Of a DNA stretch of 64,000 nucleotides, positions 13,435 to 59,126 are shown piece after piece (the first letter of the stretch is position 1; the number at the start of each line of letters is the position of its first letter). The stretch is from NCBI RefSeq assembly GCF_029952525.1, contig NZ_JASAOF010000017.1, positions 62,001 through 126,000 of the forward strand, read 5' to 3'. Both the position numbers and the translations under genes were made by a program. This DNA comes from Saccharopolyspora ipomoeae. Lineage in GTDB: Bacteria; Actinomycetota; Actinomycetes; Mycobacteriales; Pseudonocardiaceae. The notes below the pieces were generated by a model, which was not told the origin of the DNA, made no database searches, and saw only the letters and a list, made by a program, of their open reading frames with translations.

Positions 13435-13537
13435 CTCCACCAAACCCATCTCGACGACGCCCGTTGTCACGGCCCACCGGGCCAGGACGCGATCACGCAG
13501 GAGGATCGACCCGCCGGGAAGTGTTGTGCAGCAATGG

Positions 13538-13552: not shown

Positions 13553-13595
13553 TTCTCGCCTGGCCGCTCGGGGATCGGCGCGAGCGCCGCGAAAT

Positions 13596-13610
13596 CTAGG
13601 GATTCCCCGG
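13596..13610 (+). promoter_or_regulatory. candidate PAS-LuxR (PimM-type) operator before the ABC operon
   Basis: CTAGGGATTCCCCGG lies about 55 nt before the ABC exporter start and 43 nt from the opposite-facing PKS box. It resembles the PimM operator consensus CTVGGGAWWTCCCBAG, as recalled, but is one base shorter in the middle. The first ten bases are identical to the sites at 17316 and 24438. Confidence 0.55.
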
Positions 13611-13666
13611 CACCGGGGTGAGGTCTCCTGGCGCGAGGCCCGCTGACCGCCATCGGAGAGTGCCGA

Positions 13667-38599: not shown

Positions 38600-39364
38600 T
38601 CACCGGCCCGTGGAGTGGAGGCCGCCGTCCGCGTGCAGGAGGGCGCCCGTGGTGCTGGGGAGCCAGTCCGAGAGGAGGGTGCAGATCGTTCTGCCGACCG
38701 GTTCCGGGTCGGTGGTGTCCCAGCCGAGCGGGGCGCGGGATTTCCAGGCCTCCTCCAGGTCGTCCGGGCCGCCGATGGAGCGGGCGGCGACCGTGCGCAG
38801 CGGGCCCGCAGCGACGAGGTTGACGCGGATGCCGTCGGGGCCGAGCTCTCGGGCCAGGTAGCGGGTCGTCGATTCCAGGGCCGCCTTGGCGACTCCCATC
38901 CAGTTGTAGCCGGGCCAGGTGACTCGGGCGTCGAAGTCCACGCCGACGATCGAGCCGCCTCGGCCCATCAGCGGACGGCAGGCCGTGGCCAGGGATTTCA
39001 GCGAGTACGCCGAGACCTCCACGGCCGTGGCCACGTCCTGCCACGGGGTGTCGAGGAAGTCCTCGCCGAGACAGCTCGGGGGTGCGTAGGCGATGGAGTG
39101 CAGCACCCCGTCGAGGCGGTCGACGTGCTCGCGCAACCGCGGGGCGAGGTCGTCGAGCATGGCCTGGTCGGTGACGTCGAGCTCGATCACCGGGGGCGGG
39201 TCCGGGAGCCGGTTGGCGATGCGCCGCACCAGGCTGAGTCGGCCGTATCCGGTGAGCACGACCCGGGCTCCCTGCTGCTGGGCGACCTTGGCCGCGTGGA
39301 AGGCGATCGAGGACTCCGTGAGGACCCCCGTGATCAGGACCTGCTTGCCCGCCAGCAATCCCAT
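38600..39364 (-). CDS. NADH-dependent enoyl-ACP reductase, InhA-like
   Basis: A 254-residue short-chain reductase very close to mycobacterial InhA in layout: LITGVLTESSIAFHAAKVAQ at the nucleotide site, HSIAYAP, catalytic Tyr153 and Lys160 (PGYNWMGVAK), LVAAGPLRT and LLSDWLPSTTGALLHADGG. It reduces the trans-2 double bond of acyl-ACP in the last step of chain extension. It is the last gene of a six-gene minus-strand run. GAGGAG precedes the ATG. It may be a dedicated copy for the cluster or the main cellular enzyme. Confidence 0.92.
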   Translation of the reverse strand: MGLLAGKQVLITGVLTESSIAFHAAKVAQQQGARVVLTGYGRLSLVRRIANRLPDPPPVIELDVTDQAMLDDLAPRLREHVDRLDGVLHSIAYAPPSCLGEDFLDTPWQDVATAVEVSAYSLKSLATACRPLMGRGGSIVGVDFDARVTWPGYNWMGVAKAALESTTRYLARELGPDGIRVNLVAAGPLRTVAARSIGGPDDLEEAWKSRAPLGWDTTDPEPVGRTICTLLSDWLPSTTGALLHADGGLHSTGR

Positions 39365-39390: not shown

Positions 39391-40089
<699 letters not shown>

Positions 40090-42974: not shown

Positions 42975-45642
42975 CGGCGGCACCGATCAGCTCACGACGT
43001 CGCGTCCCGGTCCCGAGGTGATCGGCGACGGCCTTGGACAGCAGCAGCGGCTCGGCCACCCGCTTGGTGCCCACGGCCGCGTAGTTGGCGACGATGCCCC
43101 TGCCGCCGAAGGGCTCGTTGCCGTCGTCGTGGTCGACCAGGGTGCTGTTGACCGTGACCTGGTGCCGCTTGCGCAGGAACGACACCACTTCCGGCAGGTC
43201 GCCGTAGACCGTGGCGCCCATCGCGCGGTCGATGTAGAACGGCGAGTTCAGCACCGACAGGAGCTCCTGCTCGTCGGAGTAGCGCACCACGTTGAAGATC
43301 GGCGCGAACATCTCCGTCGCCTTCTCCTTCGGGTCCAGCGGCAGGTCCAGCACCGTGGGCCGCAGGTGCATGTCGATGATGCTGACCTCGCCGCCGGAGA
43401 CGATGTGCTGCGAGTGCTTGCGCAGGTAGTCGAAGGAGTCGGCGAAGGCCTCCAGGTAGTACATCGACCCGTAGTCGCTGGTGGTGTCGCGGTTGTCGCC
43501 GTGCCGGAGCTTGGCCACGTAGTGGCACAGCGCGGGCACGAACACGTCGGCCAGCGAATCGTGCACGAAGATGCGGTCCGGCCCGAAGCAGTCCTGCCCG
43601 GAATTGATCATCCGCACGTCGATCAGCGCCGGGATCGCGCTGCGCAGGTCGGCGTCCGGGCCGAGGACGAACGGGTTGACGCCCTGCCCGAAGAACACGA
43701 ACAGCTGCTCGGAGCTCAGCTGCCCGCGCACCTTCTCGGCGTTGTGGTAGGTGCCGGTGAACACCACCAGCTCCGACTCGGCGACCGGCCCCGCGATGAA
43801 CTCGCGCTGCGCCATCGAGCAGTCGTGGATCGGCAGCTTGTGCGCCGGCGAGAGCATCTCGTGCAGCTTGCGGGTGACGTCGGCGATCTTGCTGGAGGCG
43901 CGGAAGCTGACGTGATCGCAGTACAGGCTCGGGATCAGCAGGTACAGCACGTACGAGTACAGCGGGATGTTCGAGGGCATGAACACGGCCGCGCCCTCGA
44001 CCGGCCGGGGCCGGTGCTTGAGGACCTCCTCCTGGGCGCCTTCGAGGGTCCGGATGCACAGGTCGATCTCGCCGTTGACCGTCGCGTGGTGCGAGACCTC
44101 GGTGAGCAGCTCGTGGACCTGGGCTCGCTGGGACTGCAGGAACTCGACGACCGCGCGCAACGCCTGCAGCCGCTCCGGGTGCGGGATCGACGGGGTCGCC
44201 CGGGTCCGGCCGCGGGCCATTTCGCGCAGCGCCTCGGTGTCGACCTTGCCGTTGAGGTTGAGCGGGAACTCCGGCACCACCACGACCCGGTTGGGTCGCT
44301 CGTACTCGGCGAGTTCGGCGGCGAAGCGGGCCCGCCAGTGCGCGGGGCTGCGGTCCTGCTCGTCGGCGACGACGAACACCAGCTCGCTGCCCAGCCTCTC
44401 GTGGTCGAACGGGACCACCCGCACCGGGTTGCCGCAGCGCTCCACCTTCTCGACCAGCGCGTCCGGGTAGATCGTGTGGCCGAGGCGGTGCACCGCCCGC
44501 TTGCGGCCGATCAGGGTCAGGTTGCCCTGGTCGTCGAGCCAGCCGAGGTCGTGGGTGCGGTACTCGCGGTCGGTGACCGGCACCGGTTCGCCGTCCTCGC
44601 CGAGGTAGGCGTTGAGGTAGTCGGGGGTGCGCACCACGACCTCGCCGCGCTCGCCCGGCGGCAGCGGATCGCCGTGCGCGTCCACGATCCGGATGTCGAT
44701 GCCGTCGAGCGCACGACCCACGCCGCGCGGGTCCGGTTCCACGGCCAGCGCGATGTTGCCGGCCTCGCTGCTGCCGTAGCCGTCCAGCAGCGGCTTGCCG
44801 ATGACGGTGCGGAACCGGCCGCTCAGCGCCGCCGACAGCGGCGCCCCGCCCACGCACCACATCCGGACGCTGGCCAGCGACCCGTGGTAGCGGTTGCGCC
44901 TGCCGTAGATCGACAGCATCGTGTCGTAGCTCGACGGGGTGGCGTCGACGACCGTCACGCCGTGCTCGCTGATCCGGTCCAGCGCCTGGTCGAGGCGGTG
45001 GGACGAGTTCACCACCAGCGTGAACTCCGACCACCACCACAGCAGGATGATCGACAGCCCGTACTGGTGGGAGAACGGCAGCAGCGGCATGAGCACGTCG
45101 TCGGCGACGTAGCGCATCCGGTCCTGGGTGCGTTCGATGTTGGCGCGCACCGAGGAACCGGAGCGCACGATGCCCTTGGGCGCGCCGGTGGTGCCCGAGG
45201 ACCACAGGACCAGCCCGTCGGCTCGCTCGTACCAGGCGTCGAACGACAGCGCGTCGTGCACGTCGGCGAACGCGTCGACCGGCCGGGCCAGCCGCACCTC
45301 GCTGAGCGCGTTCTCCAGCGAGATGACCTCGGCGCCGAGGTCCTCGGCCGGCACGGTGCGGTCGCGCAGCAGCCATCTCGCCCTGGCGTGATCGATGACG
45401 CGGCGGTGCTCCTTGGCCGACTGCCGGTGGTCGACGAGCACGATGGAGGCGTCCACCGCGATCAGCGCGAACAGCGCCACCACGAACTCCGCTGAGTTCG
45501 CCGCCGAGAGCACGACCCGGTCCCCGGGCCGCACGCCCCTGCCGCGCAGCCGGTTGGCCAGCAGCGCGGAGTCCCAGGCGACCTGGTCGCGGCCGACCAC
45601 GCCTTCGGTGGTGATGAGCCCACCGCGTCCGTTGTCCCCCAT
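42967..45642 (-). CDS. acyl-AMP ligase fused to aldehyde dehydrogenase-like acyl reductase
   Basis: A fusion of 891 residues. The N-terminal ~490 residues form an AMP-ligase (LVLWSSGTTGAPKGIV, LDGYGSSEAGN, YRTHDLGWLDDQGN, LNLNGKVDTE). The C-terminal ~380 are an aldehyde dehydrogenase-like domain with catalytic Cys (MINSGQDC), EMFAPIF and EPFGGRG. The usual general-base Glu motif (LELGGK) reads VFFGQG, so aldehyde oxidation is unlikely. Reduction of an activated acyl group to aldehyde, as in LuxC-type reductases, needs only the Cys. No carrier-protein Ser motif lies between the domains. The ATG at 45642 follows GGAAGGCGAGG. It overlaps the ThDP gene. Confidence 0.85.
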   Translation of the reverse strand: MGDNGRGGLITTEGVVGRDQVAWDSALLANRLRGRGVRPGDRVVLSAANSAEFVVALFALIAVDASIVLVDHRQSAKEHRRVIDHARARWLLRDRTVPAEDLGAEVISLENALSEVRLARPVDAFADVHDALSFDAWYERADGLVLWSSGTTGAPKGIVRSGSSVRANIERTQDRMRYVADDVLMPLLPFSHQYGLSIILLWWWSEFTLVVNSSHRLDQALDRISEHGVTVVDATPSSYDTMLSIYGRRNRYHGSLASVRMWCVGGAPLSAALSGRFRTVIGKPLLDGYGSSEAGNIALAVEPDPRGVGRALDGIDIRIVDAHGDPLPPGERGEVVVRTPDYLNAYLGEDGEPVPVTDREYRTHDLGWLDDQGNLTLIGRKRAVHRLGHTIYPDALVEKVERCGNPVRVVPFDHERLGSELVFVVADEQDRSPAHWRARFAAELAEYERPNRVVVVPEFPLNLNGKVDTEALREMARGRTRATPSIPHPERLQALRAVVEFLQSQRAQVHELLTEVSHHATVNGEIDLCIRTLEGAQEEVLKHRPRPVEGAAVFMPSNIPLYSYVLYLLIPSLYCDHVSFRASSKIADVTRKLHEMLSPAHKLPIHDCSMAQREFIAGPVAESELVVFTGTYHNAEKVRGQLSSEQLFVFFGQGVNPFVLGPDADLRSAIPALIDVRMINSGQDCFGPDRIFVHDSLADVFVPALCHYVAKLRHGDNRDTTSDYGSMYYLEAFADSFDYLRKHSQHIVSGGEVSIIDMHLRPTVLDLPLDPKEKATEMFAPIFNVVRYSDEQELLSVLNSPFYIDRAMGATVYGDLPEVVSFLRKRHQVTVNSTLVDHDDGNEPFGGRGIVANYAAVGTKRVAEPLLLSKAVADHLGTGTRRRELIGAADV

Positions 45643-45691: not shown

Positions 45692-46633
45692 TCAGCGCGC
45701 ACCGGCGCGCTCCGCCGTCGCCGACGCGGTGGTGATCAGGTGTTCCTGGAACCCCTCGTCGACGCCGATGAGCCGCATGTGGCGGCGCAGGATGTCCAGG
45801 CTCATCCGCCGGAAGCCGCGGTTGCCCACCGCCGAGGTCTCCTGGTCGACGCGCAACGCCAACGGCACCGCCTGCTCCAGGACCTCGCAGATGTCGTCGT
45901 GGTGTCCCTCCAGGACCCCGGTGCGCAGGGCGTGCATGCCGAAACCGACGTGGCGGGACTCGTCCCGGCACATCGCGGTGAAGGCGGTCCTGATGCCGTC
46001 GAGCCCGCCGACGTCGCGCAGCGCCTGGACCAGCACCCGCTGCCCGACCAGCGCCAGCACGCCCTCGGTGATCATGTGGAACAGGGTGACCGCGCGCAGC
46101 CACTGCCCGTAGTCCAACGGCCTGCGGTGCAGGTCCCGGACGATCCCGGCCTCCAGCACGCTCAGCTCGCGGTGGGCGGGGGCGGCGAGGTTCCAGCTCT
46201 CGGCGAGCATCCGCTTCGGATCGGGGTCCATGCCCAGGATCTCCTCGCCGAGCCGGAACACCAGGTGGGTGTGCCGGGTCTCGTCGGCGATCTGGGTGCC
46301 GAGGAACACCGAGTACTGCTCGTCCGGGGAACCGCTGATGATCGGGCCGAGCATGTCGAGCCCGGTGTACTCGCCGATGATGAACGTCGCGATGGACTCG
46401 GCGACGATCGCGCGGAAGCCTGGCGTGATCGCGTGGTCGAAGTTCTCCTTGTCCGGTCCCAGCTCGACGTCGGCGGCGGACCACTGCTGGCGGTCCCACC
46501 GCTCGTAGAGCTCCCGGGGTTTGAGCCGCTGCGCGGCCATCACGTGCGCGTGCTGCATCACCTCGCTCAACGGGACCTTCGGCAGCTCGCTCAGCGAGGC
46601 CTCGTCCATGAGCAGCGGCGTCCACCGACTCAT
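45692..46633 (-). CDS. ferritin-like diiron protein, R2-like oxidase type
   Basis: A 313-residue helical protein with a full set of diiron ligands: Glu88 (IIGEYTG), Glu118-x-x-His121 (ADETRH), Glu190 (ITEGVLAL) and Glu225-x-x-His228 (RDESRH). The pattern and length fit the R2-like ligand-binding oxidase and related N- or C-oxygenases rather than true ribonucleotide reductase. It is the first gene of the lipid operon. Oxidation of a fatty acyl group or of an aldehyde is a possible role, by inference. Confidence 0.82.
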   Translation of the reverse strand: MSRWTPLLMDEASLSELPKVPLSEVMQHAHVMAAQRLKPRELYERWDRQQWSAADVELGPDKENFDHAITPGFRAIVAESIATFIIGEYTGLDMLGPIISGSPDEQYSVFLGTQIADETRHTHLVFRLGEEILGMDPDPKRMLAESWNLAAPAHRELSVLEAGIVRDLHRRPLDYGQWLRAVTLFHMITEGVLALVGQRVLVQALRDVGGLDGIRTAFTAMCRDESRHVGFGMHALRTGVLEGHHDDICEVLEQAVPLALRVDQETSAVGNRGFRRMSLDILRRHMRLIGVDEGFQEHLITTASATAERAGAR

Positions 46634-47190: not shown

Positions 47191-47856
47191 ATGCAGGGAA
47201 GACTCGTCCGCATCGAATGGGCCACCGAGGACGATTACGAGCTCATCGCGAGTTGGCTGAAGCCGCTGTCGCCGGCCGCGGCGATGACCGCCGACACCCG
47301 GGAGTTCCTGACCCCGGCGAAGGTGAAGGCCGCCAACGAGGACGGCAACGTGCGGTTCTTCATGGCCGTGGCCAACGACGGCGAGCGCGTCGGCGCGGTC
47401 AACTACCGGCCGGTGAACAGCTCCGGTTCCTACAGCCTCGGCGGTGTCGTCGGCGACTGGCAGAAGTGGAGCCGCGGCTACGGGGCCGAGGCGTTCGGCC
47501 TGGTCATCGAGCACCTGTTCAACGGGCTCAACGCGCACCGCGTCGAGTTCACCACGGCCGCCTACAACAAGGAGACGCTCAAGATCCTGACCAAGGGCGG
47601 ATTCGTGCTGGAGGGCGTGCTGCGGGACTACCACTACCTCGACGGCATGTACTACGACCGCACCGTCTGGTCGATCCTGCGCGAGGAGTTCGAGGAGTAC
47701 GCCGCGGCCAGCGCCGAGCACTTCCCGGTGGTCGACGCGATCCCCGCCGAGGACAAGGAGAAGGCGCGCGAGCTGCTGAGCAAGTTCCTGGCCAACGACC
47801 CGCCCACGTCGCTGCGCGATTTCGAGCGGCGCAGCAGCCGGACGCGCGCGTACTGA
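47191..47856 (+). CDS. GNAT-family N-acyltransferase
   Basis: A 221-residue protein with the GNAT fold of the RimJ/RimL type: VGDWQKWSRGYGAEAFGLVI is the acyl-CoA-binding segment, followed by NAHRVEFTTAAYNKETLKIL and KGGFVLEGVLRDYHYLDGMY. About 45 residues follow the domain. It sits 22 nt before the lanthipeptide synthetase gene. In goadvionin and related lipid-RiPP pathways a GNAT enzyme joins a fatty or polyketide acyl chain to the peptide N-terminus, which is the favoured role. Simple N-acetylation is the alternative. ATG 47191 is chosen over the GTG six bases earlier. Confidence 0.85.
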   Translation: MQGRLVRIEWATEDDYELIASWLKPLSPAAAMTADTREFLTPAKVKAANEDGNVRFFMAVANDGERVGAVNYRPVNSSGSYSLGGVVGDWQKWSRGYGAEAFGLVIEHLFNGLNAHRVEFTTAAYNKETLKILTKGGFVLEGVLRDYHYLDGMYYDRTVWSILREEFEEYAAASAEHFPVVDAIPAEDKEKARELLSKFLANDPPTSLRDFERRSSRTRAY

Positions 47857-47878: not shown

Positions 47879-50473
47879 ATGCGTGAGGACCTGGAGCTGT
47901 ACTCGCTGGCGGACCGGGTGTTCTACGAGGCGCCGTCGCGCTGGGAGGCGGCCGCGACGACCTTCGAGCTGGTCGAGGCCGCGCTCCCGGACGGCTGGGT
48001 GCGCGGCGGCAACGGCGACTGGTGCATGGTCCGGCCCGACGGACCTGACCTGCCCGACCAGGGCTGGAAGGTCCACGTGTCGGCGACGCCGGAGAACTCC
48101 TCGCGCGTGCTGGCCGAGGTGTCGCGGCACTGCTTCGCGGCGGGCGTCGCGTTCAAGTTCCTGCGCACCCGGAACCTGGTGCGCGCCTACAGCTTGAAGT
48201 ACGCGCCGCGCTCGGCGAGCGGGAAGCTGCTGACGCTCTACCCCGTCGACGACGCCCAGCTGGAGACGACGGTCAAGGCGCTGTCGACGGCCCTGGACGG
48301 GGAACGCGGCCCGTACGTGCTCACCGATCTGCGGATCGGCGGAGGACCGGTGTTCGTGCGCTACGGCGGCTTTTCGGTCAAGCACTGCTTCACCCCGGAC
48401 GGCGAGCAGCTCCTGGCCGTCGAGAACCCCGACGGTGAGCTGGTTCCCGACGATCGTCGCCCGTTCTTCACCACGCCCGAGTGGGTTTCGACGCCGGGAT
48501 TCCTCGCACCGCACCTGGACGCGCGGTCCGGGCAGTCGGCCTCGCTGGGGTACCGGATCACCGAGGCCCTGCACTTCTCCAACGGCGGCGGGGTCTACCT
48601 CGCGCGCCGCGAGGACGACGGCACCGAGGTCGTGCTCAAGGAGGCGCGCCCGCTGGCCGGGCTGGACTCGTCCGGCCGGGACGCCGTGGCGCGGCTGGAG
48701 CACGAGGTCACCGCCCTGCGCGCGCTGGAGGGCGTCGCGGGAGTGCCCCGGGTGCACGAGGTCGTCGACGTGTGGGAGCACCGGTTCGCCGTGCTGGACC
48801 GGGTTCCCGGCCGCACTCTGCAGGCGTGGGGCGCGCTGCACCACCCGCTGGTCGGACCCGAGACCAGCCCTGGAGCCGCGCGGGACTACGCCGAGCGCGC
48901 GGTGCGGGTGCTGCGTCGGGTGACCGCGGTGATCGAGCGGATCCACGAGCGCGGCGTGGTCTTCGGCGACCTGCACCCGGCGAACGTCCTCGTCGACGAC
49001 GAGGACCGGGTGGGGCTGGTCGACTTCGAGGCCGCCTCCGACATCGGCGACCAGCGGCGCCAGCACATGGGCTACGCCGGTTTCACCGACCCCGACGCGC
49101 GCGGCGCCGAGGTCGACCGGCAGGCGCTCGGCGCTCTCGCGCTGTGGTTGTTCCTGCCGCTGACCAGTCTCAACGCCCTGCACCCCGGCAAGGCGAGCGA
49201 GCTGCTCGCCGCAGTGGAGGAGCACTTCACCGTGCCCGACGACGTCCGCACCCTCATCCTCGACCGGGTCCGCCGACCCGCCCCGGCCACGTCGGTCGCG
49301 GCGGCTCCCGAGGTCCGGTTCACCGACGAGCCCGGCCGCCGGGCCGCGCGGGACTCGCTGGCCGAGGCGATCCGGGCCACCGCCGCTCCCGACCGCGACG
49401 ACCGGCTGTTCCCCGGCGACGTGCAGGGATTCCTCAACGGCGGCACCGATTTCGCGTTCGGCGCGGCCGGGGTGCTGTGGGCGCTGCGCACCGCCGGGCA
49501 CGACGTCGAGCCCGAGCACGTCGCCTGGCTGGCCGAGCGCGCCGAGCGGTCCGCCGGCAGGCCCGGGTTCTTCGACGGCGCGCACGGCACCGCGCACGTC
49601 CTCGACCTGCTGGGACACCCCGCGCGGGCGGCCGAGCTCGTCGACCGCGCCGCGCCGGACGTGGCGCGCACCCAGGACGTGAGCCTGTTCAGCGGGCTGG
49701 CCGGGATCGGGCTGAACCACCTGCACCTGGGCGAGCGCGACCCCGCGCAGCTGGCCCGAGCCCTGGAGATCGCCGACCGGGTCGCCGAGGCCGTCGAGAG
49801 CGGCCGGTCGCACGGCATCGACGCCGCCGGCCGGGTCGGCCTGCGCGACGCGGGCACGCGCGGCGGGCTGCTGCGCGGCTGGAGCGGGCCGGCGCTGCTG
49901 TTCCTGCGCTGCTACGAGGCGACCGGGCGGCGCCACCACCTGGACCTGGCGGTGCGCGCGCTGCACCGCGACCTGGACCTGTGCGTGTCCCGGCCGGACG
50001 GAACGCTGCAGGTCGACGGCGGTTTCCGGACCCTGCCGTACCTCGACGTCGGCTCGGCGGGCATCGCGCTGGTGGCCGACGAGGTGCTGCGGCACGTGCC
50101 CGACGAGCGGCTGTCGGGCAGCTCGGCCGGGTTGCACCGCAGCTGCCGCAGCACGCTGGTGGTGCAGTCGGGGTTGTTCGCGGGCCGGGCCGGGCTGCTG
50201 GCGACGCTGGCGCGGTCCTCGCCCGGTGAGCGGCTGCCGGAATCGGCGGTGGCGCACCTGTCGGTGCTGCACTGGCACGCGCTGGGCTACCACGGGCACC
50301 TCGCGTTCCCCGGGGAGGGCAACTTCCGGTTGTCGATGGATTTCGCGACCGGCAACGCGGGCGTGCTCGCGGCGCTGGCGTCGTTGGACGAGCCGGTCGG
50401 ATTCATGCCCTTCCTGGAACCACTACCAACCCCTGGTCATCATCGAAACCCATTGCTGGGGAGCAATTCCTGA
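47879..50473 (+). CDS. class III lanthipeptide synthetase LanKC
   Basis: An 864-residue trifunctional enzyme. Residues ~1-220 form the lyase region, ~230-430 a Ser/Thr kinase-like domain (FGDLHPANVLVDDED near 362, metal site LVDFEAASD near 381), and ~490-840 a LanC-like cyclase (FFDGAHGTAH, FSGLAGIGLNH, VDGGFRTLPYLDVGSAG). The cyclase lacks the Cys-Cys-His zinc ligands, which separates class III from class IV. It phosphorylates and eliminates Ser/Thr and forms lanthionine or labionin rings. GGGGAGGTGAG precedes the ATG. Two precursor genes follow. Confidence 0.93.
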   Translation: MREDLELYSLADRVFYEAPSRWEAAATTFELVEAALPDGWVRGGNGDWCMVRPDGPDLPDQGWKVHVSATPENSSRVLAEVSRHCFAAGVAFKFLRTRNLVRAYSLKYAPRSASGKLLTLYPVDDAQLETTVKALSTALDGERGPYVLTDLRIGGGPVFVRYGGFSVKHCFTPDGEQLLAVENPDGELVPDDRRPFFTTPEWVSTPGFLAPHLDARSGQSASLGYRITEALHFSNGGGVYLARREDDGTEVVLKEARPLAGLDSSGRDAVARLEHEVTALRALEGVAGVPRVHEVVDVWEHRFAVLDRVPGRTLQAWGALHHPLVGPETSPGAARDYAERAVRVLRRVTAVIERIHERGVVFGDLHPANVLVDDEDRVGLVDFEAASDIGDQRRQHMGYAGFTDPDARGAEVDRQALGALALWLFLPLTSLNALHPGKASELLAAVEEHFTVPDDVRTLILDRVRRPAPATSVAAAPEVRFTDEPGRRAARDSLAEAIRATAAPDRDDRLFPGDVQGFLNGGTDFAFGAAGVLWALRTAGHDVEPEHVAWLAERAERSAGRPGFFDGAHGTAHVLDLLGHPARAAELVDRAAPDVARTQDVSLFSGLAGIGLNHLHLGERDPAQLARALEIADRVAEAVESGRSHGIDAAGRVGLRDAGTRGGLLRGWSGPALLFLRCYEATGRRHHLDLAVRALHRDLDLCVSRPDGTLQVDGGFRTLPYLDVGSAGIALVADEVLRHVPDERLSGSSAGLHRSCRSTLVVQSGLFAGRAGLLATLARSSPGERLPESAVAHLSVLHWHALGYHGHLAFPGEGNFRLSMDFATGNAGVLAALASLDEPVGFMPFLEPLPTPGHHRNPLLGSNS

Positions 50474-50632: not shown

Positions 50633-50716
50633 GTGTCGATCCTCGACCTCCAGGCCCTGGAGACCACCGCGGCCGAGGCCTCCGTGCCGGGCAGCACCGC
50701 GAGCACCAACTGCTGA
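50633..50716 (+). CDS. class III lanthipeptide precursor 1 (27 aa)
   Basis: GTG start with AGGTGGTGA six bases upstream. The leader begins MSILDLQALE, carrying the ILDLQ recognition motif of class III precursors (compare LLDLQ in AmfS). The peptide ends VPGSTASTNC. Ser21, Ser24 and Cys27 give S-x-x-S-x-x-C, enough for one labionin ring, with Cys as the last residue. It lies 160 nt after the LanKC gene. It is too short for standard gene finders. Confidence 0.9.
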   Translation: MSILDLQALETTAAEASVPGSTASTNC

Positions 50717-50721
50717 CCTCC

Positions 50722-50742
50722 TCGCCCTCCCCAACAGGGCGA
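50722..50742 (+). terminator. hairpin between the two precursor genes
   Basis: TCGCCCT pairs with AGGGCGA around a seven-base loop, five bases after the first precursor stop. It has no T-run. It may act as a partial terminator or RNA stabiliser that sets the ratio of the two peptides. Confidence 0.45.
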
Positions 50743-50779
50743 AGGAACGGCGCGACGACGCGAGAGGAGGTGATTTCCC

Positions 50780-50863
50780 ATGTCGATCCTCGACCTGCAG
50801 GCCCTGGAGACCGCGGCCGCCGAGGCCCACGTCCCGGGCAGCACCTGGAGCAGCGGCTGCTGA
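50780..50863 (+). CDS. class III lanthipeptide precursor 2 (27 aa)
   Basis: ATG start preceded by AGGAGGTGAT (50765-50774), a perfect match to the 16S rRNA 3' end, at five-base spacing. The leader again begins MSILDLQALE. The end is HVPGSTWSSGC, keeping Ser21, Ser24 and Cys27. Only five of 27 residues differ from precursor 1 (positions 12, 17, 23, 25, 26), three of them inside the ring. It is probably the more strongly translated of the two. Confidence 0.92.
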   Translation: MSILDLQALETAAAEAHVPGSTWSSGC

Positions 50864-50899: not shown

Positions 50900-50937
50900 T
50901 TCCGCCGGTTCGGCCACAGGGTTCCGAACCGGCGGAA
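50900..50937 (+). terminator. strong hairpin after the precursor genes
   Basis: A perfect 14-bp stem (TTCCGCCGGTTCGG with its complement) encloses a ten-base loop, 37 nt after the second precursor stop. It should end or attenuate the transcript before the exporter genes, keeping precursor levels above those of the exporters. Confidence 0.7.
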
Positions 50938-51023: not shown

Positions 51024-52202
51024 ATGACCACCAGCTCCGACCGCCCGCGATTCGGCCGCGAAGAACGAGTGCTGCACGCGTCCGCGTTCGCCAGCGGCCC
51101 GATGGAGGTCCTGGACTTCCTGCTGCCGCTCTACGCCGGAGCCGTGCTGGCCGCCGCCCCCGGCCAGTCCGGGGCGCTGGTCGCGGTGTGCGCGCTGGCG
51201 GCGCTGGTGACCCGGCCGCTGAGCGGCCACCTGGCCGACCGCCTCAACGAGCTCGTGGTCGCCGCCGCCGGAGCGGTGCTGCACGCCGCCGCGCTGGCCG
51301 GGTTCGCGCTGAGCGGCGGGCTGCCTGCGGCCTTCGCGATGGCGGCGCTGACCGGCATCGGCAGCGCCTTCTTCTGGGTCGGCGTCCGCAGCTGGATCGG
51401 CGGCCGCAGCGGCGGCGACGACGGCCGCGGCTTCGGGCGGCTGCTGTCGTTCGAGGGAACCGGCCAGCTCATCGCCTACGTCATCTGCTTCACGATGCTC
51501 GAAGACCTCGGCTACCCCGCGGTGTTCGCGCTCGGCGCCGTCTCCGCGCTCCTCGCCGCCGTGCTGCTCGGCTTCACCGCGCGCGGCGACGACCCGCGCC
51601 CCCCGGCACCGTCCGACCCGGTCTCGACGCGAGACCTGCTGCCGTTCCTGGTGATCTGCGGGGTGACCGCGGCGCTGGAGGCCGCGATGAGCCTGCTGCT
51701 GCTCCTGCACCTGCAGACCGCCCACCACTACGGCCCCTACGCGATCGCCTCCGCGCTGGCGCCGGGCTTCATCGCGTTCGTGCTGGTCCCGAACATCGCC
51801 CACCGCGTGCTCGCGCGGATCGGCAAGCGCACCGCGGTGATGGCCGCGCTGCTGGCCAGCGCCCTGGTCACCGGTGTGCTGGCCGCCGCGCCCGAGCCGT
51901 GGGTGCTCAGCGTCGTGTGGATCTTCGCCGCGGCCGCGCTGGGCATCGCGATCCCCGCCGAGCAGTCGGCCATCTCCGAGCGGGCCGGGGCCCGCATCGG
52001 CACGCGCCTCAGCCACTACGAGAGCGCCCAGCTGGCGGGCGTGGCCGCGGGCACCGCCGCGATCGGCGCGCTCTACCAGGCCGCCGGGATCGCCGTCTCG
52101 GGCGCCGTCGCGGCCGTCGCGCTGGCCATCACCGCCGCGGCCGTGCCCGTCGCCTGGCGTTCGCTGACCGCCACCACCGCGCTGCGGGACACCAGCGGGT
52201 AG
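51024..52202 (+). CDS. major facilitator superfamily transporter
   Basis: A 392-residue protein with about 12 membrane helices and the loop 2-3 motif GHLADRLNE. It follows the lanthipeptide precursors and lies 6 nt before another MFS gene, so the two work in one operon. Export of the modified peptide is likely. Class III clusters more often have ABC exporters. The ATG at 51024 follows GGAACGGGACCGCG, a weak ribosome site. Confidence 0.82.
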   Translation: MTTSSDRPRFGREERVLHASAFASGPMEVLDFLLPLYAGAVLAAAPGQSGALVAVCALAALVTRPLSGHLADRLNELVVAAAGAVLHAAALAGFALSGGLPAAFAMAALTGIGSAFFWVGVRSWIGGRSGGDDGRGFGRLLSFEGTGQLIAYVICFTMLEDLGYPAVFALGAVSALLAAVLLGFTARGDDPRPPAPSDPVSTRDLLPFLVICGVTAALEAAMSLLLLLHLQTAHHYGPYAIASALAPGFIAFVLVPNIAHRVLARIGKRTAVMAALLASALVTGVLAAAPEPWVLSVVWIFAAAALGIAIPAEQSAISERAGARIGTRLSHYESAQLAGVAAGTAAIGALYQAAGIAVSGAVAAVALAITAAAVPVAWRSLTATTALRDTSG

Positions 52203-52208: not shown

Positions 52209-53756
52209 ATGGGACGACACCGCGCGCACGCCGACGCACCCACGGTGCGGTTGAGGGAGCGCCCGCTCAGGCGGGGACCGTACCGGGGACTGCTCACCGG
52301 GTCGTCGATCAACGTCGTCGGCGACGTCATCGGCACCGCGGCGCTGCCGCTGTTCGTCCTGGAAACCACGCACGACCTGGCGCTGACCGGCTGGATCGCG
52401 ACGGTCAGCGTCGGCGGCTCGGTGGTCACCGGCCTGCTGCAGGGACCGCTGATCGACCGGCTCGGGTTCCGCGCCAGCATGCTGTTCTCCAGCGTCTTCG
52501 CCGCCGCCACGACCCTGTCGGTGTACCTGCTGCACGTGGCCGGCCTGCTCACGCCGCCGCTCCTGCTGCTGCTCGCGCTGGTGCGGAGCGTCGCCGACGA
52601 ACCCGGACGAGTGGCGATCTTCGGCATCGTGCCGCAGCTGGCCGGGCAGGCCGGGGTGCCGCTGGAGCGCGCCAACGCGACGCTGCGCACCGTCACGGCC
52701 TCCTCGAACCTGGTGGGACCGCTGGCGGCGGGCGGGATCGCGGCGTTCGCGGGCAGCGAGTGGACGATCCTGCTCAACGCCGTCACCGGCCTGCTCGGCA
52801 CGACCGTGCTGCTGCTGTTCGCCCGCGCCCCGCGCACCGCTGCCACCGAGCAGGTCGGCGCCGACGAGGACGGGATGAGCTACTACCGGCGGTTCCGCAT
52901 CGGGCTGCGCTACCTGTTCCAGGACAAGCTGCTGCGCACGCTGGTGGTGGCCACGATGGTGTTCGCGGCGTTCGACTCCAGCTTCGCCACGATCGGGCTG
53001 ACCGCCTACGCCGCCGAGGTCCTGCACCAGCCCGCCCTCTACGGCGGCCTGATCAGCGCGTTCGGCATCGGTTCGCTGGTGGGCACGATCGGCTACGGCG
53101 CCGTCGGGCACAAGCTGCCCAAGCGCCGCACCTACCTCACCGTCTACCTCGCGTTCTCGGCGCTGGTGCTGCTGATGTCGTTGGAGCTGGGCGTGGCTCC
53201 GGCGTTCGCGGTGATGGCCGCGGCGGGCCTGGTGACCAGCCCGCTGGACATGCTCTACATGGCCGCGCTGCAGGAACGGGTGCCGAAGCGGTTGTTCGGC
53301 CGGGTCATCAGCATCGCCAACACGGTCCTCAGCGCCCCGGCTCCGCTGGCGGTCGCCGCGGCGACCGGGCTGATCAGCAGCGTCGGCGTGCGCACGACCA
53401 TGCTCGCGCTGGGCTGCGGCTACCTGGCGCTGGCGGTCGGCCTGGTGTTCGTGCGGCACCTGCACAAGCTCGACACGACGCCGGTCGACGGCAGCGAGGT
53501 CACGCGGCGGCTGCCGCGGAAGGTGCAGGCGACGCAACCGATCCCCCGCCGGTTCGACCACCTGGCGACGCAGCCCATTCCCAGAATTCCCACTTCCCCG
53601 CCCGGACATCGGGTGTGGATGCTGTCGGCGGACGCCGGACTCACCCAACCGATTCCGCGAATCGGTGCGGCGCACCTGCCGACGGTGCAATGGCAGCGGC
53701 ACGAATTCAGCCGGGATTCCGGCGAGATCCAGCAGAACAGGATTTTCGAGTCGTGA
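52209..53756 (+). CDS. MFS transporter with repeat-bearing C-terminal tail
   Basis: A 515-residue protein. Residues ~25-420 are a 12-helix MFS domain of the macrolide-efflux (MefA-like) kind (LTGSSINVVGDVIGTAALPL, LIDRLGFRASML). The last ~90 residues are a polar tail with three copies of TQPIPR at Thr442, Thr454 and Thr479. Such a tail is not usual in the family and might be a phosphorylation or protein-docking site. It is paired with the upstream MFS gene. Confidence 0.82.
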   Translation: MGRHRAHADAPTVRLRERPLRRGPYRGLLTGSSINVVGDVIGTAALPLFVLETTHDLALTGWIATVSVGGSVVTGLLQGPLIDRLGFRASMLFSSVFAAATTLSVYLLHVAGLLTPPLLLLLALVRSVADEPGRVAIFGIVPQLAGQAGVPLERANATLRTVTASSNLVGPLAAGGIAAFAGSEWTILLNAVTGLLGTTVLLLFARAPRTAATEQVGADEDGMSYYRRFRIGLRYLFQDKLLRTLVVATMVFAAFDSSFATIGLTAYAAEVLHQPALYGGLISAFGIGSLVGTIGYGAVGHKLPKRRTYLTVYLAFSALVLLMSLELGVAPAFAVMAAAGLVTSPLDMLYMAALQERVPKRLFGRVISIANTVLSAPAPLAVAAATGLISSVGVRTTMLALGCGYLALAVGLVFVRHLHKLDTTPVDGSEVTRRLPRKVQATQPIPRRFDHLATQPIPRIPTSPPGHRVWMLSADAGLTQPIPRIGAAHLPTVQWQRHEFSRDSGEIQQNRIFES

Positions 53757-53803: not shown

Positions 53804-53998
53804 ATGTCGAATGCGAAGCACATAGCCATCGGCGCGCTCATGGTGGTGGCCGGGGTCCTGCTGCGGATCTACGGTGGTGAAACCGAGGTCGGCCCGTTCG
53901 AATTGCGGACGGTGGGCAACGTCATCGCCATCATCGGTGGCATCGAGGCCGTCATCGGCGTCGCCTCCATCTTCTTCCCGGAGAAGAAGCTCAAGTAG
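53804..53998 (+). CDS. 64-residue two-helix membrane protein
   Basis: Two hydrophobic helices (IAIGALMVVAGVLLRIYGG and VGNVIAIIGGIEAVIGVASIF) and a KKLK end. ACGGAGGATTC precedes the ATG at good spacing. It lies 47 nt after the exporter gene. It may be an immunity or accessory membrane peptide, which is only a suggestion from position. Confidence 0.7.
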   Translation: MSNAKHIAIGALMVVAGVLLRIYGGETEVGPFELRTVGNVIAIIGGIEAVIGVASIFFPEKKLK

Positions 53999-54173: not shown

Positions 54174-55067
54174 ATGGGACTGGGGCTGGAACTGGCGGGC
54201 ACGAATGCCACCTGGGTGTTCGAGCACGACAGAATCGAGATCAATTACTCCAGCGGACTCGGGCATCCCCGCCTGCTGCGCAAGCTCAAGCACAGGACCA
54301 TCCCGTACCACGCCATTTCCCGCGCGACCGCCGCCGGCGGCGACGGTCATCCGCAGTTGACGCTCCACTTGCGACCCGGCGCGGATCCGCTCACCGAGGT
54401 CGCCGCGGGCCAGCTCGCCGACGATTCCGAACCGAACCAGATCGAGCTGGAACCGAATCAGCAGGAACTGGCGGCCTACTACGCCGACCACATCAACGAC
54501 CACTGCGATCTCAACCCGGATTCCGACGCGCTCGCGCCGCGCTTCCTCGTCGAGGTCGACCAGTCCCCGCGACGGCTCAAGGGCTACGACGGGGAGGCGT
54601 CCTTCGACGGCTCCGCGGTCGAGTTCCAGTGGCACCCGGACGCGTCCCGGGTCAAGCACCGCTCGCCGAAGCGGCGCCACGAGCTCACCGAGCTCGTCGG
54701 CGTCGAGTGGGTCAAGCCGGGTCTGACCTCGGGCCACTTCCTGCTGGTGCCGCACGGCGATCGGGCCGAGGCCCCGCCCGCCGACAACATCCGGGCCCTG
54801 CTGTTCGGCTTCGGGTTCGGCACCACCGCCAACTCGCTGCCGTTCGCCGCCGCCGTGCTGGCCGCGATCCGGCAGGCCCAGCCCGAGCTGACCGCGCTCG
54901 GCGCCGCTCCGGAGCCGCGGATGCTGCCTGGCGCGCCGCAGCGGCCGGAGATGTCGCGGGAGGAGATCCTCGCGACGATCCGCGAGCTGGGGCAGCTGCA
55001 CGCCGACGGCATCCTCACCCAGCAGGAGTTCGAGGCCAAGAAGCGGGAACTGCTCGACCGGCTCTGA
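54174..55067 (+). CDS. DUF4429-like protein with SHOCT domain
   Basis: A 297-residue soluble protein. The first ~240 residues look like two copies of a PH-like unit of the DUF4429 type: LAGTNATWVFEHDRIEINYS near residue 5 and KGYDGEASFDGSAVEFQWHP near 140, each followed by an I-x-W/Y core. The C-terminus is a SHOCT helix pair (EILATIRELGQLHADGILTQ, EFEAKKRELL). These proteins are common in actinomycetes and of unknown function. It sits between the exporters and the acyltransferase, and its link to the pathway is unproven. Confidence 0.75.
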   Translation: MGLGLELAGTNATWVFEHDRIEINYSSGLGHPRLLRKLKHRTIPYHAISRATAAGGDGHPQLTLHLRPGADPLTEVAAGQLADDSEPNQIELEPNQQELAAYYADHINDHCDLNPDSDALAPRFLVEVDQSPRRLKGYDGEASFDGSAVEFQWHPDASRVKHRSPKRRHELTELVGVEWVKPGLTSGHFLLVPHGDRAEAPPADNIRALLFGFGFGTTANSLPFAAAVLAAIRQAQPELTALGAAPEPRMLPGAPQRPEMSREEILATIRELGQLHADGILTQQEFEAKKRELLDRL

Positions 55068-55105: not shown

Positions 55106-56032
55106 GTGCGCCGTGACGCGCTCTACTTCCCGGGCCTGGTGCCGACGAAGTTCTCCGCGATCGAGGACTTCCTGCGCACCAGCGACCACGCCCGCGCCCG
55201 GATCGAGGTCGCCGACGACGTGCTCGGCTACTCGCTGCTGGACGCCTACGCCGAGGCCGAGGTCTACGACTGGGAGGTCTACGAGTCCGGGTTCCTGGTG
55301 CTGACCCTGGCCTTGGCCGACTGGGCGCTCGACCACGTCGAGCTCGACCCGGTGCTGTGCGGCGGGCAGAGCTTCGGCGCCATCATCGCCGCGGTGTTCA
55401 GCGGCGCTCTGTCCTACGAGGACGGTCTGCGGCTGGTGCGCGCCAGCGCGGCCGTGGAACTCGACTACTTCGCGGCCGTGCCGGAACCGCTGGGCTGCCT
55501 GTTCTTCTACCGCCTGGACTCGCGGACGGTCGACGCCCTCGTGGCCGACTTCCCCGGCGAGCTGGAGGTGTCGATCTACCTCGACGATTCCGTGCACGCC
55601 GTGTCGGGCACGCTCGCCGACCTGCAGCTGTTCGAGGACCGCGTGCGCGAGTCCGGCGGCTACCCGTTCTACACGATGAACCGATCGGAGCACTGCTCCA
55701 CCGTCCGGCCGCTGCGCGATCGACTCGAAACCGAGGTGTACGACCGCGTTTCGTGGAACAGTCCGAAGTGGCCGATGCTGTCGGACGTCAGCGGGAGGCT
55801 GCTGACCGATCCGGCTGAGATCGAGGAGGACCTGCTCGACGGGTGGGTGACCCCGGTGCGCTGGAGCACCGTGGTCGAGGGCATGCGCGCCGCCCGCGCC
55901 GAGCACGCGCACATCATCGGGCCCAGGAACATGTTCGCCCGGATCACCAACAACGCGCTGCCCACCGACGTCATCACCCCCAAGAAGGTCGCCGACCACC
56001 CCTCGGCGACGGCGAAGCGAGTTCACCGATGA
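55106..56032 (+). CDS. FabD-like acyltransferase with atypical substrate site
   Basis: A 308-residue member of the malonyl-CoA:ACP transacylase family with nucleophile GGQSFGA and a His in SEHCSTVRPL, comparable to SHCALM of E. coli FabD. The oxyanion motif GQGSQ near the N-terminus reads PGLVPTKF. The Arg that holds the malonyl carboxylate is Ser (RLVRASAAV, against RMVSARASL in a PKS AT of this window). A non-malonyl acyl group is therefore likely. GTG start after AGAGAGGTG. It overlaps the P450 gene (ATGA). Confidence 0.85.
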   Translation: MRRDALYFPGLVPTKFSAIEDFLRTSDHARARIEVADDVLGYSLLDAYAEAEVYDWEVYESGFLVLTLALADWALDHVELDPVLCGGQSFGAIIAAVFSGALSYEDGLRLVRASAAVELDYFAAVPEPLGCLFFYRLDSRTVDALVADFPGELEVSIYLDDSVHAVSGTLADLQLFEDRVRESGGYPFYTMNRSEHCSTVRPLRDRLETEVYDRVSWNSPKWPMLSDVSGRLLTDPAEIEEDLLDGWVTPVRWSTVVEGMRAARAEHAHIIGPRNMFARITNNALPTDVITPKKVADHPSATAKRVHR

Positions 56033-57333
56033 GCACCCGATTACCCCCGGGCCCGACCCTTCCCGCGCTGACCCAGACCTGGCGCTACTGGCGCTCCCCC
56101 GCCGAGTTCGTGCGCCGCTGCCACGAGCAGTTCGGCGCGCGGTTCACCGTGCGGCTGTGGCCGTTCGGCACCGTCGTCGTCCTCGCCGATCCCGGTGACG
56201 TCAAGGCCCTGGTGCGCAGCGATCCGTCGGTGTTCCAGGCCGGTCGCGCCAACAGCTTCGGGGAGATGGTGCTGGGCCGCGAGTCGGTGTTCGTCATCGA
56301 CGACGAGGAGCACGCCCGCACCCGGGCCCTGATGATGCCCGCGTTCCACGGCAAGGCGGTCCGCGACCAGGTCGAGCTGATGCGCGAGATCACCGCCGCC
56401 AACCTCGCGTCCTGGCCGGTGGGCGAGCCGGTGCAGGCACTGCCGCAGATGCAGGCGATCTCGCTGGAGGTCATCTCCCGCAACGTGATGGGCATCGACG
56501 ACTCCGCGCTCAAGGAGAAGGTGCAGGAGGCCGTCCTGCGGCTGCTGCGCACCGGGTCGGTGTTCGACGTGCTGCCCGGTCACGACCGGTTCCCGTCGCT
56601 GCACCCCGGCAGGCTCAAGCGCAGGCGGATGCGCGCCCGCGCGGACGCCCTGCTGCGCGAGCAGATCGCCGCGCACCGCGCCGATCCTCGGCTCGACGAG
56701 CGCACCGACGTGCTGGCGATGCTGCTGCGCGCCTCGGAGGCCGAGGGCGGGTGGATGTCGGACGCCAACATCTGCGACCAGCTGATCACGCTGCTGCTGG
56801 CCGGGCACGAGACGACCGCGACGGGCCTCGCGTGGTGCCTGGAGCGCCTGGTGCGCCACCCGGAGGTGCTGGCCGAGGCGCAGCGCGCCGCCGACACCGA
56901 CGACGACACCTACCTGGACGCGGTGATCAAGGAGGCGTTGCGCTGCCGCCCGGTGGTGCCGGACGTGGGCCGGAAGCTGGCGCGCGACGCCGACTTCGCC
57001 GGGTACCGGCTGCCCAAGGGCACGAGCCTGTGGCCGAGCATCGAGCTGCTGCACACCTCGGCCGAGTCGTTCCCGGATCCCGGGGCGTTCCGGCCGGAGC
57101 GGTTCCTCGAACGAGGCTCGATGGCCGACTGGGTGCCCTTCGGCATCGGCAACCGGCGCTGCCTGGGCGCCACGTTCGCCCAGGTGGAGTCGCGGGTGGT
57201 GCTGCGGGAGTTGTTGCGCCACTTCGAGTTCGAGACCACCGACGCCCCGGGTGAGGCCGCCAAGGCGCGGCACGTGACGCAGGTTCCGGTGGGTTTCGCG
57301 ACGGTGACCGTGCGGCGGCGCGACGCGGCATGA
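56029..57333 (+). CDS. cytochrome P450
   Basis: A 434-residue P450 with the oxygen-binding I helix (LLAGHETTATGLAW), the K-helix E-x-x-R (EALRCRP) and the heme loop FGIGNRRCLGATFA, with the thiolate Cys near residue 377. The start GPTLPALTQTWRYWRSPAEF and substrate region resemble bacterial P450s that hydroxylate fatty acyl or polyketide chains. It is coupled to both neighbours by ATGA overlaps, so it should act in the same pathway. Confidence 0.93.
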   Translation: MSTRLPPGPTLPALTQTWRYWRSPAEFVRRCHEQFGARFTVRLWPFGTVVVLADPGDVKALVRSDPSVFQAGRANSFGEMVLGRESVFVIDDEEHARTRALMMPAFHGKAVRDQVELMREITAANLASWPVGEPVQALPQMQAISLEVISRNVMGIDDSALKEKVQEAVLRLLRTGSVFDVLPGHDRFPSLHPGRLKRRRMRARADALLREQIAAHRADPRLDERTDVLAMLLRASEAEGGWMSDANICDQLITLLLAGHETTATGLAWCLERLVRHPEVLAEAQRAADTDDDTYLDAVIKEALRCRPVVPDVGRKLARDADFAGYRLPKGTSLWPSIELLHTSAESFPDPGAFRPERFLERGSMADWVPFGIGNRRCLGATFAQVESRVVLRELLRHFEFETTDAPGEAAKARHVTQVPVGFATVTVRRRDAA

Positions 57334-59126
57334 GCGCGATCTGCGTGGTGGGCGCGGGCCCGCGCGGGACGTCGGTGCTGGAGCGGCTGTGCGCGTGGGC
57401 CGGGGACGAACCGCTGGTGCTCCACGTGGTCGACCCGTTCCCGCCCGGCCCGGGCCGGATCTGGCGGCGCGCCCAGTCGGACCTGCTGTGGATGAACTCC
57501 ACGGTCGCCGACGTCCGGATGTTCACCGGGCCGGACGCGGCCCGGCACGGCCCCGCCGGGGTGGTGCCGACGTTCGAGGAGTGGCTGGGCTCGGTCGCCC
57601 GGCACGAGCTGCCCGGGGAGTTCCCCGAGCTGACCGGGCGGTCCTTCGCGCCCCGGCCCCTGGTGGGCGCCTACTTCTCGTGGGTGTTCGAGCGCGTCGT
57701 GGCCACCGCCCCCGCTTCGGTGCGGGTGGTCGTGCACCGCACCCGCGCCGTCGAGCTGACCGACCACCCCGAGGGCCAGCTCGTGACGCTGGCCGACGGC
57801 ACCCGGCTGGTCGTGGACCAGGTGGTGCTGGCGCAGGGCAACTTCGAGGCGGAGACCACCGACGAGGAGCGGGAGCTGTCCGGGTACGCCGAGCGGCACG
57901 GCTTGAGCTACTTCCCGTCGGGCTACTGCGACGAGGACCGGTTGCGCTCGCTGCCTGCCGGGGAACCGGTGCTGCTGCGCGGTTTCGGGCTGACCTTCAT
58001 CGACTGCATGGCGCTGCTGTGCGAGGGCCGGGGCGGCCGGTTCGAACCCGACCCGGTGCACGGGTTGCGGTACCGGCCGTCCGCGCGGGAACCGGTGCTG
58101 CACGTGGGGTCCCGGCGCGGCCTGCCGCATCGCGCGAAGTTCGGCTTCGAGCTGGAATCCCCGCCGCTGCCGAAGTTCTTCACCGCCGAGGCCGCGCGGG
58201 CGCTGGGCGTTCCGCTGGAGTTCGAGCGGGACCTGCTGCCGCTGGTGTTCGAGGAGACCGCGGCCGCCTACTACCACGAGCTCTTCCGCACCCGCCCGGA
58301 TCGCGTGCGCTGCTCCTGGCCGGAGTTCAGCGCCGCGTGGGACCGGCCGGAGCGGGACCAGCTGGTCGCCGAGTGCGTGCCGGAGCCATCGGATCGGTTC
58401 TCCTGGGACCTGCTGGACCGCCACCTCACCGACCCCGGCCCGGACCTGCAGGCCGCGATCCGCGACCACATCGCCGATGACCTGCGGCGTCGCGGCGATC
58501 CGGCGTTCAGCCCGGAGCTGGCGGCGGTGCAGGGGCTGCTGTCGGCGGTGGGCGTGCTCATCGAGCTGGTGGAGGCCGAGGAGCTGTCGGCCCGTTCGCT
58601 GGTGGTGGAGCTGGAGCACGGGTTCCTGCCGTTGCTGAGCCACATCACCAGCGGGCCGCCGCCGCGCCGGTTGGCCGAGCTGCTCGCGCTGTCCCGCGCC
58701 GGCGTGGTCCACTTCCTCGGCCCCGGCACCGAGGTCCGCCCCGAGGACGGCGTCTTCCGCGCCTCGGGAGAGCTGATGCCCGAGCCGGTGGAGGCGCGCG
58801 TGCTGGTCGAGTCGCGGCTGCGCACGCCGTCGCTGCTGGACACCTCCGACGCACTGCTGCGGCGCCTGCGCGAGGCCGGCGAGTGCGTCCCGCAGACCCA
58901 TCACGACGCCGACGGCACCGAGCACACCACCGGCAAGATCAGCGTCCGCGCGGGCGACCACCGGTTGCTGCGCGCCGACGGCACGCCGCACCCGAACCGC
59001 TTCGCCATCGGCCCCTACGTCGCCGGCGTCCACACCCCCACCAGCGGCCCGGGCGCCTCCGGCTTCTTCGCGAGCAGCGACCTCCTCGCCCGCACCGCGC
59101 TCGAAGGACTAGTACCCGCGCACTAG
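57330..59126 (+). CDS. FAD/NAD(P)-binding oxidoreductase-like protein
   Basis: A 598-residue protein of the FAD-NAD(P)-binding group (PF13454-like). It starts with the dinucleotide motif ICVVGAGPRGTSVLERL, has LLWMNSTVADVRMFTG and a second nucleotide-type segment, and ends with a long C-terminal part (TSGPGASGFFASSDLLARTA). The reaction is unknown. Related proteins occur in several specialised-metabolism clusters. Its ATG overlaps the P450 stop. Its 3' end overlaps the convergent dehydrogenase gene by 18 nt. Confidence 0.82.
   Translation: MSAICVVGAGPRGTSVLERLCAWAGDEPLVLHVVDPFPPGPGRIWRRAQSDLLWMNSTVADVRMFTGPDAARHGPAGVVPTFEEWLGSVARHELPGEFPELTGRSFAPRPLVGAYFSWVFERVVATAPASVRVVVHRTRAVELTDHPEGQLVTLADGTRLVVDQVVLAQGNFEAETTDEERELSGYAERHGLSYFPSGYCDEDRLRSLPAGEPVLLRGFGLTFIDCMALLCEGRGGRFEPDPVHGLRYRPSAREPVLHVGSRRGLPHRAKFGFELESPPLPKFFTAEAARALGVPLEFERDLLPLVFEETAAAYYHELFRTRPDRVRCSWPEFSAAWDRPERDQLVAECVPEPSDRFSWDLLDRHLTDPGPDLQAAIRDHIADDLRRRGDPAFSPELAAVQGLLSAVGVLIELVEAEELSARSLVVELEHGFLPLLSHITSGPPPRRLAELLALSRAGVVHFLGPGTEVRPEDGVFRASGELMPEPVEARVLVESRLRTPSLLDTSDALLRRLREAGECVPQTHHDADGTEHTTGKISVRAGDHRLLRADGTPHPNRFAIGPYVAGVHTPTSGPGASGFFASSDLLARTALEGLVPAH

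Follow-up and report, generated by a model that had tools for sequence, protein, structure and literature searches.

SapB/AmfS-type precursors of class III lanthipeptides are about 40 amino acids long and carry two rings. The lipoavitides, attributed to Ren et al. in 2024, are said to consist of a ribosomal peptide that an acyltransferase joins to a chain from a non-modular fatty acid synthase, with a KAS III enzyme reportedly supplying 4-hydroxy-2,4-dimethylpentanoyl as a short branched group and with avionin as the ring. Ribosomal lipopeptides known so far are few. The lipolanthines (microvionin, nocavionin, the goadvionins and nocaviogua A/B), of which 12 were known by a 2023 count (excerpts of PMC10435860), combine a class III synthetase, an eight-residue SxxSxxC core, avionin and an acyl chain on residue 1. 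Nocaviogua A/B, for example, are acyl-Ala-Avi-Val-Ser-Avi-Asp/Asn-Gly-Avi, eight residues with acylation of residue 1; in the available text of the same source, microvionin is active against MRSA at <0.46 μg/mL and the nocavioguas have no antibacterial effect (PMC10435860). Avionin formation needs a flavin Cys-decarboxylase (excerpts of PMC10373908, PMC12328550 and PMC9415263), and the microvionin leader is removed by M1 proteases encoded outside its cluster (excerpt of PMC10885120).

The window, a 64,000-nucleotide stretch of Saccharopolyspora ipomoeae DNA whose coordinates are used throughout, contains two short genes that appear to form one side of a conserved hybrid pathway joining a RiPP to a fatty acid. 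Their products are probably precursors of a lipolanthine-type lipidated class III lanthipeptide, with every reaction being predicted. On the best reading, the lipidated single-ring class III kind is already known and a version with discrete fatty acid synthesis (FAS) enzymes and no Cys-decarboxylase is new; no description of this cluster type was present among the literature matches listed, in a search lying outside most subscription journals.

Two short genes downstream of LanKC encode precursors with a single ring motif

A gene for a class III lanthionine synthetase, LanKC (47879 to 50473, + strand), scored 983.9 bits with model NF038151 (cut-off, 575). The precursor pair starts 159 nt 3' of this gene, in agreement with an earlier note on this DNA that had placed class III precursors downstream of LanKC. 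The first frame (50633 to 50716, +) has a GTG start with AGGTGGTGA upstream and comprises 27 codons, encoding MSILDLQALETTAAEASVPGSTASTNC with the core GSTASTNC, while the second (50780 to 50863, +) has an ATG start with AGGAGGTGA upstream and encodes another 27-residue product, MSILDLQALETAAAEAHVPGSTWSSGC, with the core GSTWSSGC. Both contain the LxLQ-type leader and SxxSx(2-5)C core by which class III precursors are defined in the literature (including excerpts of PMC7268733 and PMC11251773), and the single minimal SxxSxxC ring motif proposed in the earlier note was borne out in each. That note had set the single ring against a two-ring standard; only one ring motif is indeed present, but the comparison was incomplete, as lipolanthines provide a single-ring class III precedent. 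The two peptides share 22 of their 27 residues and, since three of the five mismatches (positions 12, 17, 23, 25 and 26) fall at ring positions 23, 25 and 26, it was fair to describe them as twins differing mainly there. Precursor 2 recurs as an identical peptide in a relative (G350). Both genes lie within a 99-nt direct repeat, the copies of which have 83% identity and are spaced 147 nt apart.

At 27 codons each, the genes are small enough to be missed by gene finders, as had been suggested. They are also shorter than the precursors retained or reported in the accessible parts of two published surveys, one of which, from 2020, dropped frames of <30 aa (PMC7268733), while the other, from 2024, covered precursors 29 to 100 aa long and gave lipolanthines as the sole characterized single-cysteine kind (PMC11251773). 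The frames would get a name once called, as their scores with the SapB/AmfS model NF033212 (28.0 bits for precursor 1 and 27.1 bits for precursor 2) exceed its cut-off of 25. A 14-bp perfect stem-loop (50900 to 50937, +; z = −5.29) is located 3' of the last precursor and 5' of the transporter genes. This structure was not flagged by a terminator scan, which requires a T run and a loop shorter than this one; the same scan found no promoter-like sites.

Conservation of the precursors and cluster types

Matches to precursor 2 at an E value of ≤0.01 were detected in 14 of the 390 host-family genomes searched, counting the own genome. Re-translation was performed for 33 of the 36 matched places, omitting the two own copies and one place at a contig end; SxxSxxC was kept in all 33, and Cys was the last residue in 31, with the remaining two precursors ending in CG and CFNA. 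An even draw of the class gave matches to the precursor alignment in 12 of 394 genomes (own included), several of which were other, longer class III precursors of 32 to 46 aa. Named genomes were also searched with an alignment of the GNAT-fold acyltransferase encoded at 47191 to 47856 (+), yielding 35 loci. LanKC was present within the fetched flanks at 17 of these loci, all of which also have one or more of these precursors, and was not found in the fetched flanks of the other 18. The LanKC-bearing loci, 10 of which coincide with genomes from the family-wide peptide search, belong to Saccharopolyspora, Prauserella, Amycolatopsis, Frankia, Crossiella, Nakamurella, Kutzneria, Streptomyces, Saccharomonospora and a single MAG; Saccharopolyspora flava (L061) was the closest relative of the window. 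No GNAT relatives were found in the viral contigs searched. The earlier note had made its proposal dependent on conservation of these frames in related clusters, and such conservation was found, both in the 14 family genomes and in Frankia, Nakamurella and Streptomyces.

Members of the ketosynthase (KS), ligase/aldehyde dehydrogenase (ALDH), GNAT and LanKC families were encoded near the precursors in each of the 14 genomes recovered solely by the peptide, a set that had not been selected for any of these four. Twelve of these genomes and six loci found via GNAT and retained for LanKC (L065, L068 and L070 to L073, in which both genes are therefore present by selection) formed a group of 18 window-like clusters, termed FAS type. 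This gene set recurs in eight genera (Saccharopolyspora, Prauserella, Amycolatopsis, Crossiella, Kutzneria, Frankia, Nakamurella and Streptomyces). Four other clusters with the same GNAT family and LanKC (G339, G340, L074 and L109) have a type I PKS instead, whereas the window cluster encodes discrete FabF, FabG, FabI and AT enzymes. The four PKS-type rows were set apart in the GNAT tree with support of 100/99; the LanKC tree was without this split. Long branches were flagged in the tree analysis for L074, L109, L112 and L068. L112, with GNAT, LanKC and flavin monooxygenase genes and no KS found, was excluded from both groups and was placed nearer the FAS type by the GNAT tree.

A profile search detected 47 precursors in the 18 FAS-type clusters, including two, in G105 and L065 respectively, that had escaped a simple pattern search. 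Cys was the last residue in 46 of the 47, although the motif is better tested by the re-translation of 33 places because peptides of this sort went into the profile. The precursors are very short and have a pooled pN/pS of 0.67 to 0.69, as might be expected of chance or decayed frames resembling class III leaders, and the case for them is consequently one of positional conservation rather than of a strong codon-substitution signal. Such an origin is nevertheless highly improbable: frames of 20 to 60 aa with an SxxSxxC end and an [ILV][LIV][DE]LQ leader occurred twice in the window and never in 40 dinucleotide shuffles, and all 18 clusters had tandem arrays of two to four copies with a conserved core. 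Both 27-residue frames are confirmed as real genes. A hairpin with z ≤ −2.3 was located 3' of the last precursor copy in 13 of 19 arrays, the values for G353, G259, G255, G105, L071 and L072 being above this threshold; 20 values had been computed, and that for L065 was void because the profile search showed a further precursor copy downstream.

Some arrays exhibited variant copies. The first precursor of each array in Crossiella (L039 to L042) had a core that has diverged (ASPISMGC or GSSFSMSC/GSSFSMHC) and was followed by a longer spacer of 131 to 142 nt. In G340 (L043; from 19664), an intact precursor is preceded by a match that scored weakly with the profile (18 bits) and has an SSASWNC end but no longer the usual leader, perhaps a decayed copy. 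The 27-aa precursors of L112 (G447), with cores LSGISSDC and LSSVSVDC, lie beside LanKC, GNAT and flavin monooxygenase genes, with no KS within 20 kb.

Gene content of the cluster

Gene counts for the 18 FAS-type clusters are lower bounds, as some loci are cut by contig ends. GNAT, LanKC, the FabF-type KS and the ligase/ALDH were each present in all 18, partly by selection. Downstream of the precursors on the + strand are genes for two MFS transporters (51024 to 52202, in 11 of 18; 52209 to 53756, in 16), a 64-aa small membrane protein without an NCBIfam match (53804 to 53998; proteins of 63 to 70 aa, similar by eye, occupy the same position in seven other clusters), a DUF4429/SHOCT protein (54174 to 55067, in 9), a malonyltransferase-like AT of the FabD/MdcH/VinK type that scored below NCBIfam cut-offs (55106 to 56032, in 15), a cytochrome P450 (56110 to 57333, in 6) for which the best NCBIfam model, ApyO, was below its cut-off, and a flavin N-monooxygenase (57330 to 59126, in 14). 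The − strand carries genes for an R2-like metal oxidase (45692 to 46609, in 15), an acyl-AMP ligase fused to an aldehyde-dehydrogenase-like domain (42967 to 45642), a thiamine-diphosphate (ThDP) enzyme of the acetolactate synthase/2-hydroxyacyl-CoA lyase superfamily (41349 to 42974, in 12), the FabF-type ketosynthase (40090 to 41352; TIGR03150, 536.2 bits; cut-off, 493.75), a FabG-type ketoreductase whose best models were below cut-off (39391 to 40086, in 6) and a FabI/InhA-type enoyl reductase (38600 to 39364, in 13; 421.4 bits; cut-off, 299). The last is the genome's second copy, the other being on contig C22 with a further SDR alongside, and could double as self-protection. A ribonuclease-domain protein gene (PF00545; 35658 to 36071) adjoins the cluster and is common to two Saccharopolyspora kin.

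No acyl carrier protein (phosphopantetheine-binding) domain was found in the cluster, and the scanned cluster proteins included no dehydratase, indicating that the fatty acid set is incomplete by itself; both functions are presumably supplied by primary metabolism. Nor was there among them a KAS III (FabH) of the lipoavitide type, the only KS being FabF type. While the proposed joining of a RiPP to a non-modular FAS product by an acyltransferase resembles that reported for the lipoavitides, the window thus differs in its ketosynthase and in the additional ligase-ALDH, ThDP enzyme and R2-like oxidase. The latter aligns with R2-like ligand-binding oxidases, in which a fatty acid is held at the metal site, and its six metal ligands are intact, being invariant in 13 aligned sequences (of 15). 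BbmA/CsmA were the best PDB kin of the ThDP enzyme, and no relevant paper on them was present among the literature matches listed. A one-carbon shortening route involving the ligase, an oxygenase, the ThDP lyase and the ALDH is an idea suggested by the superfamilies of these enzymes.

The flavin monooxygenase exhibited full-length homology (297 bits) to an L-aspartate N-hydroxylase (8cp2). Of the aspartate-binding residues given in an excerpt of PMC10404684, alignment by eye indicated that Arg13, Trp51 and Asn62 are kept, Arg266 is Lys, Arg409/Arg412/Asn413/Arg416 are Leu/Val/Gly/Ile, and Arg276 and Arg577 are gaps. As most of these residues are replaced or missing, aspartate is an unlikely substrate, and a role in nitrosuccinate formation as an aspartate N-hydroxylase was rejected. 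The Lyase_1 protein of L079 had no match in any neighborhood tested, and nothing relevant on nitro or starter-unit lipopeptides was present among the literature matches listed.

The LanKC context described in the earlier note was upheld, but the GNAT acyltransferase and fatty acid genes had been overlooked. The GNAT protein (PF13302) is the proposed N-terminal acylator; its structural model (pLDDT 78) has a GNAT fold, is nearest to SpeG and RimJ-like enzymes and also resembles S5-alanine acetyltransferase. With such neighbors, its acyl preference is unreadable from sequence and addition of acetyl alone is possible; nor need it act on a peptide, since 18 of the 35 loci of this family were without LanKC in the fetched flanks. 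These resemblances, the precursor scores above the SapB/AmfS cut-off and the location of the fatty acid genes on the opposite strand in the window would suit an ordinary single-ring SapB/AmfS-like class III peptide without lipid, the GNAT only acetylating and the fatty acid genes serving another product. We regard this as unlikely, because FabF-KS, ligase, GNAT and LanKC occur together near the precursors in 14 of 14 peptide-found genomes, because the set recurs across eight genera, and because the precursors match at most 29 of the 42 positions of NF033212, without the second ring. Thus, while an ILDLQ-type leader, LanKC and the NF033212 match are shared with SapB/AmfS, the window precursors differ in having 27 aa, one Cys and one ring, and in their association with GNAT and fatty acid genes. 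An acyltransferase and acyl-chain genes, as expected of a lipolanthine, are present in the cluster. The GNAT and fatty acid genes suggest an N-acylated lipopeptide, the acylation itself being predicted.

Members of the same GNAT family were also observed before FabG-like SDR, acyltransferase and ligase-like genes in Bacillaceae (L076, L079, L080 and L081) and Nocardiopsis (L075 and L078), the Bacillaceae loci having ALDH and ThDP enzyme genes nearby as well; LanKC was absent from the flanks of all six. L079, which additionally has KAS III, NRPS end module, ATP-grasp and lyase genes, was read as a locus for an acylated product.

Ring type

The Cys-decarboxylase family PF02441 was searched for in the own genome, 13 kin and 21 further genomes, and matches were placed relative to LanKC. 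No such gene was located inside any of the 18 FAS-type clusters, that of the window included, absence being weaker evidence for L070 and L072, which are cut by contig ends. Outside the cluster on the same contig, matches were found in G353 (a 304-aa frame ∼8 kb past the last cluster gene), G340 (>20 kb away) and G395 (66 kb away). The PKS-type cluster of Streptomyces bicolor (L074) served as a positive control, with a PF02441 gene ∼2 kb upstream of LanKC that was confirmed by hmmscan; none was found inside the other three PKS-type clusters (G339, L109 and G340, the last being also cut by a contig end and its absence there thus weaker evidence). Avionin was therefore rejected as the default ring, in contrast to the lipolanthines, and a labionin or lanthionine, in either case with a free acid, is predicted. 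The hint in the earlier note that the C-terminal Cys is what avionin formation requires was not sustained, given the lack of a PF02441 gene in the window's cluster and 17 like it and the extension of two related precursors past this Cys.

The near-invariant C-terminal Cys (31 of 33), the core spacing shared with lipolanthines and the three PF02441 proteins encoded elsewhere in the genome would fit a true lipolanthine, with Cys decarboxylated by an enzyme encoded outside the cluster to give avionin. However, all three proteins are encoded off the cluster's contig, and their frame lengths (381, 199 and 508) suit CoaBC/UbiX-like proteins. Together with the 0 of 18 clusters bearing PF02441, as opposed to its proximity to LanKC in L074, and with the two precursors having residues beyond Cys, this makes such a product improbable. 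Labionin or lanthionine with a free acid is accordingly the ring type preferred here. As natural clusters exist with and without the decarboxylase, the need of an aminovinyl end for activity becomes testable. The PKS-GNAT-LanKC cluster of L109 (G649; 356 to 15469) also has no decarboxylase gene nearby, and its two precursors, with NCG and NCGG as their last residues, do not have the ring Cys at the C terminus.

Proposed pathway

In the proposed pathway, LanKC would bind the helical ILDLQ leader, dehydrate Ser21 and Ser24 and join Ser21, Ser24 and Cys27 into one labionin ring (or a single lanthionine). A protease encoded outside the cluster would then cut off the leader at about residue 19 to give an octapeptide, X-S-x-x-S-x-x-C, with its C-terminal carboxylate retained. 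A cleavage site before residue 20 is suggested by the core spacing, which matches the S-x-x-S-x-x-C spacing of the eight-residue nocaviogua core if the window GSTxSxxC is released at this predicted site. No protease was recognized in the cluster; three M1 proteins are encoded in the genome, none of them on the cluster's contig. Cleavage after Pro would suit only some members of the family, the residues before the core being M-T in Crossiella and leucine in others.

The divergent operon (FabF, FabG, FabI, ligase-ALDH, ThDP enzyme and R2-like oxidase) and the malonyltransferase may make and oxidize an acyl chain, borrowing the carrier protein and dehydratase of primary metabolism. The GNAT would move this putative chain onto the N terminus of the octapeptide, residue 1 being also the position acylated in lipolanthines, followed possibly by tailoring by the P450 and flavin monooxygenase and by export through the MFS pumps. 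Acylation of a ribosomal peptide by a GNAT would be shared with the selidamides; in excerpts of the literature on these, fatty acylation occurs on Lys/Orn side chains, whereas the tallied cores of window-type clusters are without Lys or Arg.

We tentatively suggest, although the odds are somewhat against it, that octapeptides with one labionin ring, a free C-terminal acid and an oxidized FAS II acyl cap constitute a widespread family, not previously described, of hybrids between RiPPs and fatty acids, with an FAS II set that includes the ligase-ALDH fusion, ThDP enzyme, R2-like metal oxidase and flavin N-monooxygenase of changed specificity. The acyl tail might then have a nitrogen-oxygen or shortened-chain group, not known in RiPPs.

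About 30 kb from the lanthipeptide cluster, two carrier-protein domains were detected on the − strand (3841 to 8532) within a 9141-aa frame, which we take to belong to a modular synthase of large size that is probably of the type I PKS kind. The long + strand frames opposite this frame are probably its antisense.
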